A stretch of 46,542 nt of DNA, from assembly GCA_016286785.1 (NCBI GenBank), contig JAEEUB010000005.1, positions 1-46,542 on the forward strand. The letters are read 5' to 3'. The position numbers and the translations under genes were made by a program. Below are positions 14,033 through 32,072 of this stretch, piece by piece. The first letter of the stretch is position 1. Each line of letters begins with the position of its first letter. The notes beneath the pieces were generated by a model. It saw only the letters and a program-made list of their open reading frames with translations, searched no databases and had not been told where the DNA came from. The DNA is from Candidatus Saccharimonadota bacterium. GTDB taxonomy: Bacteria > Patescibacteriota > Saccharimonadia > Saccharimonadales > Saccharimonadaceae.

Positions 14033-14128
14033 TTTTACTCCATTCCCCCTGTTAACGTATGATTGCTTTATAGCTTAATAAAACTATGTTCATTTTTTAT
14101 AATTCTAGCACAAAATTTAAAATGTTTG

Positions 14129-14137
14129 TGCTATAAT
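14129..14137 (+). promoter_or_regulatory. Extended -10 promoter of the LPITG protein gene
   Basis: TGC-TATAAT ending at 14137, six bases before ATG at 14144. It decides the start: the longer frame from 14063 would place the promoter inside the gene. Confidence 0.65.
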
Positions 14138-14143
14138 CTAGTT

Positions 14144-15187
14144 ATGGTTAAACAAACACCGAAGGTCATATTTAAGAGCGTTTTGCTTTTTGCTTCAACA
14201 CTGCTGTCAGTGTCTGATGCGAGTTCGGTGTTTGCTGTTACTCCTCAAGAATATGATGCTGATTTTCAGGTAAATGTTAAAGAAACTATTTCGGTGTCTA
14301 TCACTCGGCCAAGTTCGGGTGCTGCTGGTGATATTAATGAATTTTTGCGCAATGATTTTGCGATTAATGTTAATACTAATAATACGGAAGGTTTTACTGC
14401 TTCTATGTATGCAGATATTATTGGCAGTACCGTTCCTTTAACTAATACAACTCACAGTTCATCCACTTTGCCAACTTTGACTGCAAGCGCAGGTGTTACA
14501 AGATCTTCCTTTCCGGCTAATTATTGGGGGTATTCTCTAGGGCAATATACGTTAGACGGCGTGACGCAAAGTTCTTATACGCTTAATGGTAAGACTTATA
14601 GCGAGACTGCGGCTGGTAACAATAACAGCTTGTATTATCCTATGATACCGTATTCTAGCAGATCGAATCCGATTGTGATTATGGATGGAGCAACAACACC
14701 AAAAAGTAGTGGTACCCAAAATATTTACTTTGGCGCAAAGGGTGATGCCAGTTTGCGTGCTGGTACATATACTGGTACCGTAGTTGTTAGTGTTGTTTCT
14801 GGTGGAATCGCTTCGAATAATCCAGTTACGCCAACTAACCCAGCTAGGCCCTCTGACGATAATATTCCTAATGGTGCTGCTTACCGTTCAGGTACAAGAG
14901 GCGTTGGTTCTAGTGGCACAAGTGGAACTACGATATATACTACGACTTCTGGTAATACTACTAAAACCGAGATTAGTGGTGGAGACAATAGAGGGGCTTA
15001 TGCTCACCCGCAGGGCGAGCGTTACGAAACATTTACCGATGTAAACGAGGGTCTTCCGATAACTGGTCTAGTCATGGCTTCTACTGTAGCTGCTTTTACG
15101 GGATTCACTTTCTTCATTCTTGCCTATCGTGACGACGACGATGATGAAGATGAAGAGCAAGAGAATATGGCCGGTGGCCAACAATAG
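14144..15187 (+). CDS. LPITG-anchored surface protein with the shared beta domain
   Basis: 347 residues. Signal peptide (MVKQTPKVIFKSVLLFAST, cleavage near VFA). Residues of about 30-235 carry the shared motif series: NTEGFTASM, YWGYSL, IYFGAKG and RAGTYTGTVVVSVVS. A Gly/Ser/Thr/Asn-rich stalk follows. The C-terminus has a sortase motif LPITG at 304-308, a membrane helix (about 309-328) and a tail that is strongly acidic (DDDDDEDEEQE) after a single arginine, whereas classical sorting signals end in a basic tail. The sortase at 19260 is the likely processing enzyme. Start set at 14144 from the TGCTATAAT box; it is probably leaderless. Wall or surface attachment is inferred from the motif. Confidence 0.85.
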   Translation: MVKQTPKVIFKSVLLFASTLLSVSDASSVFAVTPQEYDADFQVNVKETISVSITRPSSGAAGDINEFLRNDFAINVNTNNTEGFTASMYADIIGSTVPLTNTTHSSSTLPTLTASAGVTRSSFPANYWGYSLGQYTLDGVTQSSYTLNGKTYSETAAGNNNSLYYPMIPYSSRSNPIVIMDGATTPKSSGTQNIYFGAKGDASLRAGTYTGTVVVSVVSGGIASNNPVTPTNPARPSDDNIPNGAAYRSGTRGVGSSGTSGTTIYTTTSGNTTKTEISGGDNRGAYAHPQGERYETFTDVNEGLPITGLVMASTVAAFTGFTFFILAYRDDDDDEDEEQENMAGGQQ

Positions 15188-19259: not shown

Positions 19260-20450
19260 TTAATTGCCGGTGAGCCAGTTCCAGATTCCTTCGAAGAATG
19301 ATGGTTCATTGGATGGCATTTCTTGGTCTAGGTTTTGATCTACTGTAACTGGATTTTTGGAGGATTCGGCAGTATCGGGATTTGGCGAGATCTGCTCGGC
19401 AGTAACTAGTAAGCGGTAGCGGGATGTGCCAAGAGGCGTACAGGTAACTAAGGTTAGTATTGGCTTGTCGGTATTTACGACTAAGGCCGCTACGTTAGTG
19501 GGCTCAACTACTTCTTTCTTTGTAACTCTGTAGGTGTAGCGCACCGAGTTGTAATTAATATAGATTAGGTCACCATCGTTTAGTCTTTCTAACCCAGAAA
19601 AAATATATTTATAGGGATTAGAACTGTAAATGTCTCCTGCGGAATGGCCGGTTATTACCAGGTTGCCTATTTCGCCTGGATAGGCACTGGCGCCAGCAAT
19701 GCGATAATGCGCTACTCCATTATTCATGCTAGCCATAACATCAGAAAGCTGGACTCCAAAATGAACGGGGACATCAATATTAAGTTTTGGGATGATGAGG
19801 CGTGGTTCTGGTGAAATGGTCTGAGTGATGGTTGGATCGATGGCTTCAATCTCGGAAGCTGGCGAATTACCAGGAGAGACGTAAGCCATGATGGGGGCAA
19901 AAATTAATCGGTTATATTGCAAGAATAGAATTATCAAAACTACTACTATTCCGGCTATAATCGGAATGAGATGTCTGTGACGATGGGAAAACTTGGCGTT
20001 TTCGGTTGCTTTTTTACGTATTTTTTGACGCAAATTATCCTTAATCGTAGAATCCTGACTCGTTATGTCATTGTCTGTTCCAAGAGTTAAGCCGTTGGTT
20101 TTATTTGTCTTAATGCTGGACTTAGCGATTTTAGTAAGTATTTCTTCTTCTTCGGCCCTTTCCCTTTCATCCTTTAGGCGTTCTCTTGCAATGTAGTTTT
20201 GTGCAGCTCTAGAATAATAATCATTGTAGTATTTTTGGTAATAATTTTGCCAGGCCGAATGGTATTTTTTCCAGGATTCAGAATTAAGCCTGCTAAGCTC
20301 GTTTTTAAGATGAGCTTTATTTTTGCTGGCTTCTTTTCTAGCCTCATTAGCGGACTTGGCATAGGCTGCCAAAACTCTTTTTCTGGCGATTGCTGCTGCG
20401 GTTTGTCGCTGAAGGTCACTTGAAGACCGCCCACCGTTTTTAGAATCCAT
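19260..20450 (-). CDS. Sortase with a long cytoplasmic N-terminus
   Basis: 396 residues. Sortases are membrane cysteine transpeptidases that cut LPxTG-type motifs and link proteins to the envelope. Catalytic residues visible: H269 in VITGHSAGD, C337 in LTLVTCTPLGTSRYRL and an arginine at 344 or 346. The TLVTC-TPxGTxRYRL pattern resembles class D/E-type housekeeping sortases. A membrane helix (about 161-180) is preceded by an unusually long charged, Tyr/Ala/Lys-rich cytoplasmic part (1-155) likely forming coiled coil. A substrate with LPITG lies at 14144. TGG-TATAAT at 20462-20457 is six bases before ATG, so it is probably leaderless. Confidence 0.93.
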   Translation of the reverse strand: MDSKNGGRSSSDLQRQTAAAIARKRVLAAYAKSANEARKEASKNKAHLKNELSRLNSESWKKYHSAWQNYYQKYYNDYYSRAAQNYIARERLKDERERAEEEEILTKIAKSSIKTNKTNGLTLGTDNDITSQDSTIKDNLRQKIRKKATENAKFSHRHRHLIPIIAGIVVVLIILFLQYNRLIFAPIMAYVSPGNSPASEIEAIDPTITQTISPEPRLIIPKLNIDVPVHFGVQLSDVMASMNNGVAHYRIAGASAYPGEIGNLVITGHSAGDIYSSNPYKYIFSGLERLNDGDLIYINYNSVRYTYRVTKKEVVEPTNVAALVVNTDKPILTLVTCTPLGTSRYRLLVTAEQISPNPDTAESSKNPVTVDQNLDQEMPSNEPSFFEGIWNWLTGN

Positions 20451-22821: not shown

Positions 22822-24393
22822 TTACCAGTATTTTACGATAACGCTAAGGTAATAAACTATGACGAATAGTCCGATTGCGACAGATAGAGTGACGATGATA
22901 TTGTTAATGAATGACTTATTGTCTTCTGATTCGGATTTGGCCAGCTTAGTTGATTGGCTATTTGTATTTGTTACTATAGAATCTTGATTGTCGTTAAATG
23001 CAATTATCCTGTCATCACCCTTACTGGTTTCTACTATTGTGACCGGGAGCGAGCTGTTTGGTTGTGCAGGTGTGGCCGATTCTACTGATGCTGAAGAGTT
23101 TGGGGTTGTTGAAACTTTTTGTTGCTCAGTTGACTTAGTGGTGGTTTTGACATTTGTCTTGGCTTTAGCTTCTGCTTCGGCCTTAGCCTTGGCTTCTGCT
23201 TCGGCCTTAGCCTTGGCCTCTGCTTCGGCCTTAGCCTTGGCCTCTGCTTCGGCTTTAGCCTTGGCCTCGGCGGCAGCTTTAGCTTTAGTCTTAGCTTCTG
23301 CTTCGGCCTTAGCCTTGGCCTCGGCGGCAGCTTTAGCTTTAGCCTCGGCGGCAGCCTTAGCTTTGGCCTCGGCGGCGGCCTTGGCCTTAGCTTCGGCTTT
23401 GGCTTTAGCTTCTGCTTCGGCCTTAGCTTTGGCTTTAGCTTCTGCTTCGGCCTTAGCCTTGGCCTCGGCGGCAGCTTTAGCTTTGGCACGATTGTTTGCA
23501 TCGGTTTTAGCATTATAATTAGTTACTTTATAAACGGAATAATGTTTCCCATCTGGTGCGCTATTAAACAATATGTATGGAGTACCATTTGCATCGAAAT
23601 CCATGCCCTCTATTTCGCTATATCCGGGTTTAATGTAAAAAGCATTTATAAAATTGCCGCTTAGATCGAATTGATAAATGACATTTGCTTTGTTGCCGAT
23701 GTTTTTGTTACAGAAATCGATGTTTTCTTGGGAACTTAGACTGTTGCATGGCGCCCAGGCAAGCCTGTAAAGATAGCCGTTCGAAAATGCGACATCTTGA
23801 TTTATTAGTCTGTGTCCAGCATCGAATGATTTTAATAGTTTAAAGTTACTGTTTAAAATTCTGCCTGAGGATTTGCCGCTACCGCTAGTTTGAATATACC
23901 AATCATCTTTGGCATCATAGGCGATGCCTGTCGCAGACTGGCCTTCCGTTATTTTGCCAACATATTTACCATTATCAGCATTAAATAGATGTTTAGTGGC
24001 TCCGTCTACAACAACAATTTGATTTTTTTTGCTGTTCCAAGCGGTTCCGTTGCCGTGGCCAATATTGTGCTTTGTTTTCCAGGCCGGGGTGGAACTAGGA
24101 TTCTTGCGGCTTGTAGCTACAATCCAGCCCGTATTATTGTTTTTGGAATGCGCTTGTGTTACGACGAAGTATTTATCCGTTACTGCAAGGCTCTGAGATG
24201 AGTCGATCGTGTTGTCTATTTCTGTGCCAACATATACTAGGGACAGATTAAGGCTTGTCATTTTTGAAGACGGAAGGTTAGCAATTTTGCTGTTTAAGGC
24301 TTTTGACGGTTGGTTACAGAACAGTGGCAGTACGCCAGGGGTGATTAATCCTAGAATCAATAAAAGATTTATTATAAGTTTCCTGATTTTCAT
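22822..24393 (-). CDS. Secreted propeller-like protein with Ala/Lys/Glu-rich stalk and C-terminal membrane helix
   Basis: About 523 residues from ATG at 24393; a TTG two codons earlier (24399) sits at better spacing from AGAAAGG and may be used instead. Signal peptide (MKIRKLIINLLLILGLITPG). Residues of about 40-290 look like a beta-propeller of NHL or six-bladed type (VYVGTEIDNTIDSSQSLAVTD, GHGNGTAWNSKKNQIVVVDG, GYSEIEGMDFDANGTPYILF). A region of about 115 residues is built from AKAKAEAE-type units, likely a long helical or coiled stalk. A Ser/Thr/Asn linker and a C-terminal membrane helix (FINNIIVTLSVAIGLFVIVYYL) follow. The design is a propeller head held away from the cell by a rod. No LPxTG motif was seen. 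Confidence 0.8.
   Translation of the reverse strand: MKIRKLIINLLLILGLITPGVLPLFCNQPSKALNSKIANLPSSKMTSLNLSLVYVGTEIDNTIDSSQSLAVTDKYFVVTQAHSKNNNTGWIVATSRKNPSSTPAWKTKHNIGHGNGTAWNSKKNQIVVVDGATKHLFNADNGKYVGKITEGQSATGIAYDAKDDWYIQTSGSGKSSGRILNSNFKLLKSFDAGHRLINQDVAFSNGYLYRLAWAPCNSLSSQENIDFCNKNIGNKANVIYQFDLSGNFINAFYIKPGYSEIEGMDFDANGTPYILFNSAPDGKHYSVYKVTNYNAKTDANNRAKAKAAAEAKAKAEAEAKAKAKAEAEAKAKAEAKAKAAAEAKAKAAAEAKAKAAAEAKAKAEAEAKTKAKAAAEAKAKAEAEAKAKAEAEAKAKAEAEAKAKAEAEAKAKTNVKTTTKSTEQQKVSTTPNSSASVESATPAQPNSSLPVTIVETSKGDDRIIAFNDNQDSIVTNTNSQSTKLAKSESEDNKSFINNIIVTLSVAIGLFVIVYYLSVIVKYW
23155..23495. repeat. In-frame tandem repeat coding the Ala/Lys/Glu stalk
   Basis: Degenerate repetition of short units coding AKA, AEA and AAEAK blocks. 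Units are multiples of three, so unit gain or loss keeps the frame and would change stalk length. Long open frames on the other strand and in other frames here are by-products of the repeat. Confidence 0.8.
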
Positions 24394-24481
24394 AGCCAAT
24401 AAAACCTTTCTCTATATTATGACATGATGAACTTACATCTATATTATATCATACTAATGGTAAAAATGCAATAATTAGACA

Positions 24482-28892: not shown

Positions 28893-28930
28893 TTGACAAG
28901 CTTTTTTATATGGTTTATTATTAAACCATA
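28893..28930 (+). promoter_or_regulatory. Promoter with perfect inverted repeat over the -10 box
   Basis: TTGACA at 28893-28898, 17-base spacer, TATTAT at 28916-28921. A 9-bp perfect inverted repeat TATGGTTTA-TTAT-TAAACCATA (28909-28930) is centred on the -10 box, which is the expected place for a repressor operator. It is the only such palindrome seen at a promoter in this window. Confidence 0.6.
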
Positions 28931-28958: not shown

Positions 28959-31900
28959 ATGGGTTTAATAAACATAACTCTTAGAACTACTGGTGAAGAT
29001 CCTGACGTCCCTGTAGTTCCCGACGATCCGGTAGTTCCCGATGTGCCTGTGGTTCCCGATGATCCGGTAGTTCCGGGCGAACCTTCTGGTGAACCTCAGG
29101 CCAATAACGAAACCAGCCTTCCGGTGCCAAATACGGGAGAATATTCACGAGAAAAATCCCTTCAACTTACCCCGCTATTTATAGGCAGCATTATCATTGT
29201 ATTGATAATCGTGCTAACGATAATTGCTAGAAAGCTAAAAAATAATCACAAGGTTTTTGCTAGGAATAAAAGTTTTAGCATTGGCGCAAAAAAACAAAAG
29301 ATTTTTGCTGGTTTTTTTGTGCTTATAGCTGCATTTTTGACTCATGGGATACTAAATAGCGATGTTTCTAGAACCGAACCTACAAATGCGTTGCCGGGCT
29401 CTATTGCTATTAGCGCGGGCAATGTTGATCTTAATATTACTCGTACGGGAGACGAAGCGGTTTTTGGTTTTGTTAAAGATGAGGTTACGGTTATCGATGG
29501 AACAGACAACGGCTATACTATGGGTGTTTATGCGACAAGTGTTGATGTGATTTCGGAAGAAAGTGAAGAGAATAAAATAACTAATATTACTTCTAGTAAT
29601 TCGGCCCTAGAGCCGAACACTTGGGGAATTTCTGTTAATTCTCCAGAAAATCAAAATTCCGAAGTGTGGAATGCTATGCCAAAAAATCAGGACGATGCTT
29701 TAATTCTAAAGTCTATAGACTCAAGGACCGAAGCTTATGATACTACAGATGTTTATTATGGTGCGTATGTTGGTGCTGATTTACCTGATGGTGTGTATTC
29801 TGGAGTTACCGTAAACTATTTTGCAGTGGCTAACGTGGTGATTCCTGATGTATTCACATTATCATTTAACTCTAATAATGGTTCTGGGGCTTTAAGGGCG
29901 CAAGAATGCACGGTAACTGAATCTGCTGAATCGTGTTCGGTTACGGTTCCTTCTACTATGCCAACCAGAAGCGGCCACACGTTTAAAGGCTGGGCGGATA
30001 CCAGTACCGCTACCACTCCTAAGTATCAGCCTGGTGGTACAGTTGAGCTAAGAGCCAATAAGACAATTTATGCGGTTTGGAGTCAGAACACGGTTACTCG
30101 TACGCTGTCCTTTGATGCAAATGGTGGTACTGGAGCTCCTAGTGCACAGTCTTGCGTTGCAAAAGGGACCGTAACAACTTGCTCTATTGTGAGTACTTCC
30201 ACCGTCCCAAGTCGCTCTGGATATACGTTCCTAGGATGGGGAGATGCGGCGGACGCTACCACAAGTGAATATGAGGCAGGTGAAACGATAGTGTTAAATA
30301 GTGATAAGACCATTTATGCCGTCTGGAAAAAAGAACAAACCGTTAGTACGTTTAAGCTTTCCTTTAATGCAAATGGTGGTACTGGAGCTCCTAGTGCACA
30401 GTCTTGCACTACTACGGCTTCGTCGTGTTCTGTTACGGTTCCATCTACTAAACCGACTCGTACAAATTATACCTTTAAGGGCTGGGCGACCACGACCAGT
30501 GCTAGTGCCGCCAAATATAATCCTGGCGATAGTGTTGCTTTGTCTAAAAATACAACCATATATGCAGTCTGGAAGAATAATTACACGATAAAGTTTAATG
30601 GTAATGGTAGCACTAGTGGTTCTATGTCTAATCTTGCCATGGTTTATGGAACGGCTAAGAATCTTACAGCGAATACTTTTGTAAAAACTGGTTATACTTT
30701 TTCTGGTTGGAATACTAAAGCCGATGGTAGTGGTACGGCTTATGCCAACAAGCAATCCGTAAATAACCTTACCAATACGGCTGGCGGAATCATTAACTTG
30801 TACGCTCAATGGAAGGGTCAGAGTGGAAAGATTCATTTTATTAGTACTGGTAATAGTAATGCTTTTCTGATTGAAAGTAATGGCCACTATGGCTTGGTCG
30901 ATGCTGCAAATCCACTCTATCCGGCAAATTCTTCTGATGTGACGACCTGTATGAGTGATGCGACTTGTGTTAGCAATTCTGCCGATACTGTATCGCACGT
31001 GGTAACCTACCTTAAAAAAGTAGGCGTTACGACGCTAGATTTTATCGTTGCGTCACATTCTCACTCTGATCATATTGGCGGTATGGCTAAGATTGCTAAA
31101 GAGGGATTTGTTAATTCAAAAACACAGTATTACTATCGTCCTTATGTTGGCGCCAAAGAAGATACATATACTGGACAAAACAGTTGGCATAATCGCGACT
31201 TTTATAATCGGGCCATCAACGCAATGCGTAGTGCGGGAGCTAAGCTTATCAATGTAACTAATAAAGTGACTGAACTTAGTTTAGGTGATTTTAGCCTTAC
31301 AATACTCAATGCCGAAGAAGCGACTGCTTCAGAAAAAGTGAATGGTGTTTGCGAGGATGAGAATGTAAATTCTCTCGTAGTCCTTGCCAAGGTTGGAAGT
31401 AAAAAAACATTACTTGCCGGTGATATGGAAAAGCTCGATGAAGACAAGGTGGCAAAGAAAGTTGGAGTAGTTGACATTTTGCAAATGGGGCATCACGGAC
31501 TACCGACTTCTACATCAGTTGATTTCTTGAAGGTAATAAAGCCAAAAACGGCTATAATTCCGTCTAGGGATTTTTCGTCGAGCAATAGGCAGTGGGGTGG
31601 CATGGCTTATGCGCATAAGAATTTGGGGACGAAGTTTTATATGACTGGTCATACGAGCGATGCTATTATCGTAACGTTTAATAATAATACTTATTCTTTG
31701 AGTGATTATGGTAAGACCTCGACTAGTACGAAAATAAGTATAACCACTGAAAGTTCGGGTAAGGGTGAATGGGTGAAGTTTGACTTTAAGAATAATAATA
31801 TTTTCTGGTCTCATTTGGACTCGAATGGGGCGGTAAGCGAAGGCTGGAGGCAATTGGATTACCATGGTCGCACCGATTGGTACTATTTTGACGGTGACGG

Positions 31901-32072
31901 TAGAATGATGAAAGACGAATGGAGAGAGATAGAGTATCAAGGAAAAATAGAGTGGTTCTACTTTGATTCTAGCGGTAGGATGGTGACGGGTTCGCGAACG
32001 ATTAATGGCGAGTCATTTGGATTTAGATCTGATGGAGTATGTAACAGTGGACGAGGATGTCCGCATCCATAA
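28959..32072 (+). CDS. Surface metallo-beta-lactamase-fold protein with InlB-type repeats and cell-wall-binding repeats
   Basis: 1037 residues. The N-terminus is odd: PDVPVVPDDP repeats, VPNTG (56-60), a membrane helix (about 72-90) and a basic stretch, which is the usual look of a protein's C-terminal sorting region. A second hydrophobic segment (115-132) then acts like a signal. Next come the shared beta domain (145-300), four Flg_new/InlB-type repeats (about 299-376, 380-457, 463-539, 542-620), a metallo-beta-lactamase domain (about 624-910) with H700-x-H702-x-D704-H705, D822 in LLAGD and H845/H846, and choline-/glucan-binding-like repeats (about 936-1022; WYYFDGDGRM, WFYFDSSGRM). The MBL type is like the ComEC C-terminal nuclease. 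AAAAAGGA precedes ATG. Probably an extracellular hydrolase held at a wall or host surface. Confidence 0.85.
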   Translation: MGLINITLRTTGEDPDVPVVPDDPVVPDVPVVPDDPVVPGEPSGEPQANNETSLPVPNTGEYSREKSLQLTPLFIGSIIIVLIIVLTIIARKLKNNHKVFARNKSFSIGAKKQKIFAGFFVLIAAFLTHGILNSDVSRTEPTNALPGSIAISAGNVDLNITRTGDEAVFGFVKDEVTVIDGTDNGYTMGVYATSVDVISEESEENKITNITSSNSALEPNTWGISVNSPENQNSEVWNAMPKNQDDALILKSIDSRTEAYDTTDVYYGAYVGADLPDGVYSGVTVNYFAVANVVIPDVFTLSFNSNNGSGALRAQECTVTESAESCSVTVPSTMPTRSGHTFKGWADTSTATTPKYQPGGTVELRANKTIYAVWSQNTVTRTLSFDANGGTGAPSAQSCVAKGTVTTCSIVSTSTVPSRSGYTFLGWGDAADATTSEYEAGETIVLNSDKTIYAVWKKEQTVSTFKLSFNANGGTGAPSAQSCTTTASSCSVTVPSTKPTRTNYTFKGWATTTSASAAKYNPGDSVALSKNTTIYAVWKNNYTIKFNGNGSTSGSMSNLAMVYGTAKNLTANTFVKTGYTFSGWNTKADGSGTAYANKQSVNNLTNTAGGIINLYAQWKGQSGKIHFISTGNSNAFLIESNGHYGLVDAANPLYPANSSDVTTCMSDATCVSNSADTVSHVVTYLKKVGVTTLDFIVASHSHSDHIGGMAKIAKEGFVNSKTQYYYRPYVGAKEDTYTGQNSWHNRDFYNRAINAMRSAGAKLINVTNKVTELSLGDFSLTILNAEEATASEKVNGVCEDENVNSLVVLAKVGSKKTLLAGDMEKLDEDKVAKKVGVVDILQMGHHGLPTSTSVDFLKVIKPKTAIIPSRDFSSSNRQWGGMAYAHKNLGTKFYMTGHTSDAIIVTFNNNTYSLSDYGKTSTSTKISITTESSGKGEWVKFDFKNNNIFWSHLDSNGAVSEGWRQLDYHGRTDWYYFDGDGRMMKDEWREIEYQGKIEWFYFDSSGRMVTGSRTINGESFGFRSDGVCNSGRGCPHP

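Follow-up and report, generated by a model that had tools for sequence, protein, structure and literature searches.

A membrane-tethered protein with a Pce-type metallo-beta-lactamase domain in Candidatus Saccharimonadota may be a phosphorylcholine esterase

Streptococci decorate their own cell with many choline-binding proteins, and the structures of pneumococcal Pce from 2005 are said to have already revealed a catalytic module with choline repeats. Pce takes phosphorylcholine off teichoic acids (PMC4929436). ComEC likewise carries a metallo-beta-lactamase (MBL) domain, where Asp replaces one His of motif II (PMC8579336). Here we analyse a protein encoded at 28959-32072 (+) of the window, a stretch of 46,542 nucleotides (contig JAEEUB010000005.1) from a Candidatus Saccharimonadota genome of 0.77 Mb that is 97% complete. 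From its sequence and predicted fold, we regard it with some preference as a tethered phosphorylcholine esterase of the Pce/CbpE type, which would face outward and probably act on a foreign substrate.

The gene is an intact ATG-start frame of 1037 amino acids with AGGA 5 nt upstream of the ATG. A sigma-70-like promoter, TTGACA-17-TATTAT, lies on the same strand at 28893..28921 and agrees at 11 of 12 positions, as a consensus match only. The N-terminal tail (residues 1-71; 28959..29171) is acidic (net -10) and proline-rich, lacks a signal peptide and contains PNTG at residues 57-60 (29127-29138). A Kyte-Doolittle scan places two transmembrane helices, TM1 (72-90) and TM2 (115-133), around a basic loop (+9) within 29172..29357, a segment conserved in relatives. 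The beta domain that follows (residues 134-298; 29358..29852) is common to other surface proteins of the genus and, taken alone, yields a poor structure model (pLDDT 52), while the adjoining four Flg_new (InlB B-type) repeats (29856..30821; Pfam E 5.7e-45) would form a stalk, whose DNA includes two copies 95% identical over 55 nt. The MBL domain comes next (about residues 620-920; 30816..31718; Pfam Lactamase_B E 6.6e-10), with the metal motif HSHSDH (residues 700-705; 31056..31073), the insertion W743-H-N745 (31185..31193), D822 (31422..31424) and H845-H846 (31491..31496), and the chain ends in choline-binding-type hairpins (about residues 927-1025; 31737..32033).

The Pfam matches bear out the order of four Flg_new repeats, MBL domain and choline-binding-type repeats that a first-pass annotation had read, and H700/H702/D704/H705, D822 and H845/H846 are intact at exactly the positions it had given. 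In an AlphaFold2 model of residues 617-1037 (pTM 0.85, from 27 aligned sequences) the last ~100 residues form beta hairpins (pLDDT mostly 79-94), and the metal site is complete; neither of the two outcomes that the annotation had named as counting against it, repeats that do not model as hairpins and a broken metal site, was found. Its statement that no described protein has this domain order fails for the MBL-plus-repeats part, since Pce (2bib) is built that way, and stands for the whole PxTG-TM-TM-beta-4xFlg_new-MBL-repeats order, which as far as searched occurs otherwise only in the genome G350. The layout is far beyond chance, since this homologue from another species, 58% identical over the MBL domain and with all metal ligands intact, shares it in full.

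By sequence, predicted fold and tree position, the MBL domain is of the Pce/CbpE type, to which it is closer than to ComEC. A phmmer search of solved structures with the fragment 617-1037 returned 2bib at E 9.5e-34, CbpE (12qj) at 1.3e-30 and 1wra at 1.6e-28, and the 2bib alignment spans fragment residues 5-409, which comprise the MBL domain and the repeats, both modules in the same order. With the MBL domain alone, Pce scored 5e-29 against 1.6e-8 for ComEC, about 20 orders of magnitude weaker, at an identity to Pce of only about 27%. The closest fold to the model was 1wra (VIA-align Z 30.1, 2.8 A, 279 residues), ahead of ComEC 9ic4 at Z 25.8, after which the next row falls to 17.6; Foldseek aligned the model with 2bib at 3.6e-29. 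A viral fold library gave unnamed top rows and then phage lysin repeats, none of them usable. Assignment to the class B metallo-beta-lactamases was rejected (bla_class_B_core, 25.4 bits against a cut-off of 100).

A contig scan gave no matches with a single query sequence and 80 loci with an alignment query. In a tree of 84 domains, made up of six from this family of genomes, pneumococcal Pce and 77 scan loci, a long branch (100/98, with bootstrap not fully settled) parts 36 Pce-side rows from 48 ComEC-like rows and places the window MBL on the Pce side together with S. pneumoniae, S. oralis and Gemella, its nearest neighbours being other Bacillota rather than streptococcal Pce. The alignment columns tell the same two groups apart: the W743 column holds Trp in 86% of the 36 Pce-side rows and is gapped throughout the 48 ComEC-like rows, and the N745 column holds Asn in 83% of the Pce-side rows. 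The window MBL keeps the Pce-side signature residues, including Y724, Y729, W743, N745, N784 and N802, and lacks the HP and RTD that are kept in 94-100% of ComEC-like rows; at these GHP/RTD columns it has R877-Q878 and M895-T896-G897. Motif II reads HPDADH in ComEC 9ic4 and HSHSDH in the window MBL, although the third-position His of HxHxDH does not separate Pce from ComEC-like rows here, given that the scan pattern selected HxHSDH.

The first-pass annotation had taken the nuclease part of ComEC as the nearest type, and a rival explanation is a ComEC-type extracellular nuclease acting on extracellular or host DNA. Such an enzyme might even stand in, in trans, for the nuclease part of the cell's own ComEC, which seems to be without an MBL domain (a 485-aa frame whose match covers profile positions 124-349; G000:C25:18213-18860, L172). 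The NCBIfam model ComEC_Rec2 does match the C-terminal part of the protein (E 3.4e-19), as does the fold of 9ic4, and no Pce model was among the NCBIfam matches. Yet the ComEC_Rec2 score is 68.4 bits against a cut-off of 190.05, the match covers profile positions 432-632 only, and the 1037-aa protein contains no ComEC competence membrane domain. With the tree placement, a motif II that is not of the Asp type and the missing HP and RTD, and with just four of the 174 genus genomes carrying such a domain, too few for a general component of competence, we consider a nuclease distinctly improbable; for action in trans, moreover, almost half of all ComEC proteins are without an MBL domain (PMC8579336). 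Other elements of the annotation fared better. The predicted N-out/loop-in/C-out topology and the intact metal site agree with its surface-exposed hydrolase, probably an active one, and its suggestions of wall phosphodiesters and of choline-phosphate as substrate were good guesses; wall binding through the C-terminal repeats is plausible.

The repeats themselves are at the edge of their family models, with Choline_bind_1 just over its cut-off (20.7 bits against 20.5) and Choline_bind_3 just under (26.8 against 27). They also match the glucan-binding repeat model TIGR04035 at 4.8e-8, and about three hairpins are present. The glucan-type match would suit a protein that is an adhesin first, its repeats binding choline or glucan of the partner cell while the MBL domain has little activity or serves only as a spacer, and the copy in G226, with HNHSGH and a lost His, indicates that catalysis can be dispensable in relatives. 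All metal ligands are, however, intact in the window protein and in G350, and we hold this explanation to be improbable. The G226 copy (L017:2478-4745) is itself probably an inactive enzyme, kept with its choline repeats and a dockerin.

As for the topology, the acidic tail is predicted outside, followed by TM1, the loop of net charge +9 inside, TM2 and an outward ectodomain; the positive-inside rule thus puts the large C-terminal part outside the cell together with the tail. A PxTG outside, a membrane helix and positive charges inside follow one another as in a sorting signal, but PNTG lies at residues 57-60 of 1037 and not at the C-terminus. Among 119 relatives, 11 were found to carry the same N-terminal module, all of them of this genus and with 1-9 copies each. 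The C-terminal parts behind it differ widely, and in 19 of the 20 loci read PxTG lies at residue 17-57. The module loci are window 28959-29357, L126-L144 and L018:527-3046, with up to nine copies per genome (G266); in effect, their N-terminus holds a complete cell-wall sorting signal, behind which come a second transmembrane helix and variable ectodomains. Sortase cleavage of the module would transfer a mere 17-57-residue peptide, which canonical sorting does not explain.

Three sortases are encoded in the bearer genome. The one within the window (19260..20450, -; PF04203, E 7.6e-26) is a possible partner of the PNTG signal, and it has a long, highly charged N-terminal extension ahead of its membrane helix. 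Two further proteins of the window were noted: the surface protein at 14063-15187 (+) has LPITG near its C-terminus, a transmembrane helix and a strongly acidic tail, DDDDDEDEE, where positive charges would be expected, and the secreted protein at 22822-24399 (-) has a long alanine/lysine/glutamate repeat (AKAEAEAKAKAAAEA...) ahead of a C-terminal transmembrane helix.

Judged from its distribution, the MBL gene is a rare accessory gene, since few genomes of the genus and phylum carry it. MBL matches at E 1e-8 came from 5 of 174 genus genomes, the bearer included, and the four with Pce-like MBLs remain after setting aside G237, whose match (L026:883-2241) is a different, 452-aa membrane-anchored MBL protein with the motif SHIEEDH, located between small membrane proteins. 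At E 1e-20, the bearer genome was the sole match in a 379-genome sample of the phylum. G265 and G259 encode proteins with a signal peptide, PxTG, two transmembrane helices, the beta domain and an MBL domain, without Flg_new repeats, choline repeats or W-x-N, whereas G197 and G226 (genus g11) encode secreted proteins of MBL, choline repeats and dockerin, a layout shared by L035, which comes from a sheep-gut genome of the Bacilli. Three of the 174 genus genomes have choline-type repeats. As for the neighbourhood, truB, a PRC-barrel gene and recX adjoin in 9 of 25 sampled genus genomes, and the MBL gene adjoins truB in the window and, in another gene order, in G350. The Saccharibacterial copies do not form a clade by themselves; they group with gut Bacillota (98/96), and the sister of the window protein and G350 is, weakly, L035 (93/74). 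Exchange of the gene with gut Bacillota is likely on this tree, whereas direct transfer from oral streptococci is not supported, the Saccharibacterial rows not grouping with streptococcal Pce.

Substrate specificity in the MBL superfamily drifts easily. A Pce-like phosphodiesterase could scavenge nutrients from another head group or lipid, such as phosphoethanolamine, other teichoic-acid substituents, glycerophosphodiesters or choline lipids, given that identity to Pce is only moderate and that many Pce-side proteins come from gut bacteria which, as far as we are aware, are not known phosphorylcholine carriers. We think this unlikely, as the protein keeps W-x-N and the two Tyr found in the Pce/Gemella/S. 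oralis group and has choline-type repeats directly after the MBL domain, as in Pce. Several observations nonetheless speak against a phosphorylcholine esterase, namely the absence of W-x-N and repeats from G265 and G259, the incomplete metal ligands of G226, the glucan-repeat match, the low identity to Pce and the small number of hairpins.

For the tethered phosphorylcholine esterase, which we continue to prefer, we suggest that the two N-terminal helices would hold the protein in the epibiont membrane and that the beta domain and the four Flg_new repeats would serve as its stalk. The di-metal MBL domain may then cleave phosphorylcholine, or a head group much like it, off a wall polymer on which the C-terminal hairpins would keep the enzyme. 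LicD was not detected in the bearer genome (G000), where at 97% completeness absence is no proof, or in G350, nor was choline kinase detected in the bearer genome; as this genome also encodes just one choline-repeat protein, the substrate is probably foreign. G265 and G259, whose proteins lack choline repeats, do carry LicD-family genes, as does G197 (G259:C6, G265:C7, G197:C11; L108-L110), which suggests that some relatives may decorate their own surface polymers. The substrate could be borne by the host or a neighbouring bacterium, for example phosphorylcholine-bearing Actinomyces or streptococci. By analogy with oral Saccharibacteria, we assume the host of this genome to be an Actinomyces relative. 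Phosphorylcholine epitopes are displayed by Actinomyces viscosus and A. gerencseriae, both of which possess Lic-1 genes (PMC10434233), and in Actinomyces odontolyticus XH001, the host of TM7x, choline-binding protein genes go up on attachment of this epibiont (PMC6166536).

The analysis supports the gene, its topology and a Pce-type domain with intact metal site and hairpins, whereas specificity for phosphorylcholine, a substrate on another cell and a part in attachment or in editing the host wall are what we infer. In its fullest form, which is conceivable though doubtful, the epibiont would trim phosphorylcholine from the host wall and hold on by its choline repeats, so that host-wall decoration would govern attachment or host range, with the enzyme displayed via a reversed N-terminal sortase-type signal that would be a surface-display module of the genus. 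A named target, wall phosphorylcholine, would make host choice and handling by Saccharibacteria directly testable: does the host carry phosphorylcholine, does the epibiont remove it, and do free choline or loss of host licD block attachment? If true, phosphorylcholine editing would extend from streptococcal self-remodelling to action on another bacterium.

Among known systems, pneumococcal Pce/CbpE/LytD (2bib, 1wra, 12qj) shares the MBL fold, the di-metal ligands, the W-x-N insertion and choline-binding-type hairpins directly after the MBL domain, and acts outside the cell. Pce, however, has a signal peptide and is held by a long choline-repeat array, whereas the window protein, at 27% identity, starts with the PxTG/two-TM anchor, the beta domain and four Flg_new repeats and has few hairpins. 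Among gut and rumen Bacillota and Eggerthellaceae, Pce-like proteins (L029, L031, L035, L045, L051, L081, L087, L095) lie on the same side of the tree and carry choline-type repeats, but a motif search found neither a Flg_new stalk nor a PxTG/two-TM start in them. Likewise, the signal peptide-MBL-choline repeat-dockerin proteins (G197, G226, L035) fall in the same MBL clade (98/96) with choline-type repeats, yet represent a soluble secreted form without stalk or two-TM anchor. The C-terminal MBL of ComEC/Rec2 (9ic4) shares the fold and the equivalents of D822 and the two His, and differs in motif II, GHP/RTD, the competence membrane domain and tree position. The literature searched did not describe a Flg_new stalk and N-terminal PxTG two-helix anchor joined to a Pce module in this lineage, and neither "phosphorylcholine" nor "teichoic" appears in the text of a survey covering 3349 MBL-like genes of CPR bacteria (PMC10459063). 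What is new compared with these systems is the lineage that bears the enzyme and the frame in which it is displayed, with an N-terminal PxTG, two membrane helices, a beta domain and a four-repeat stalk.
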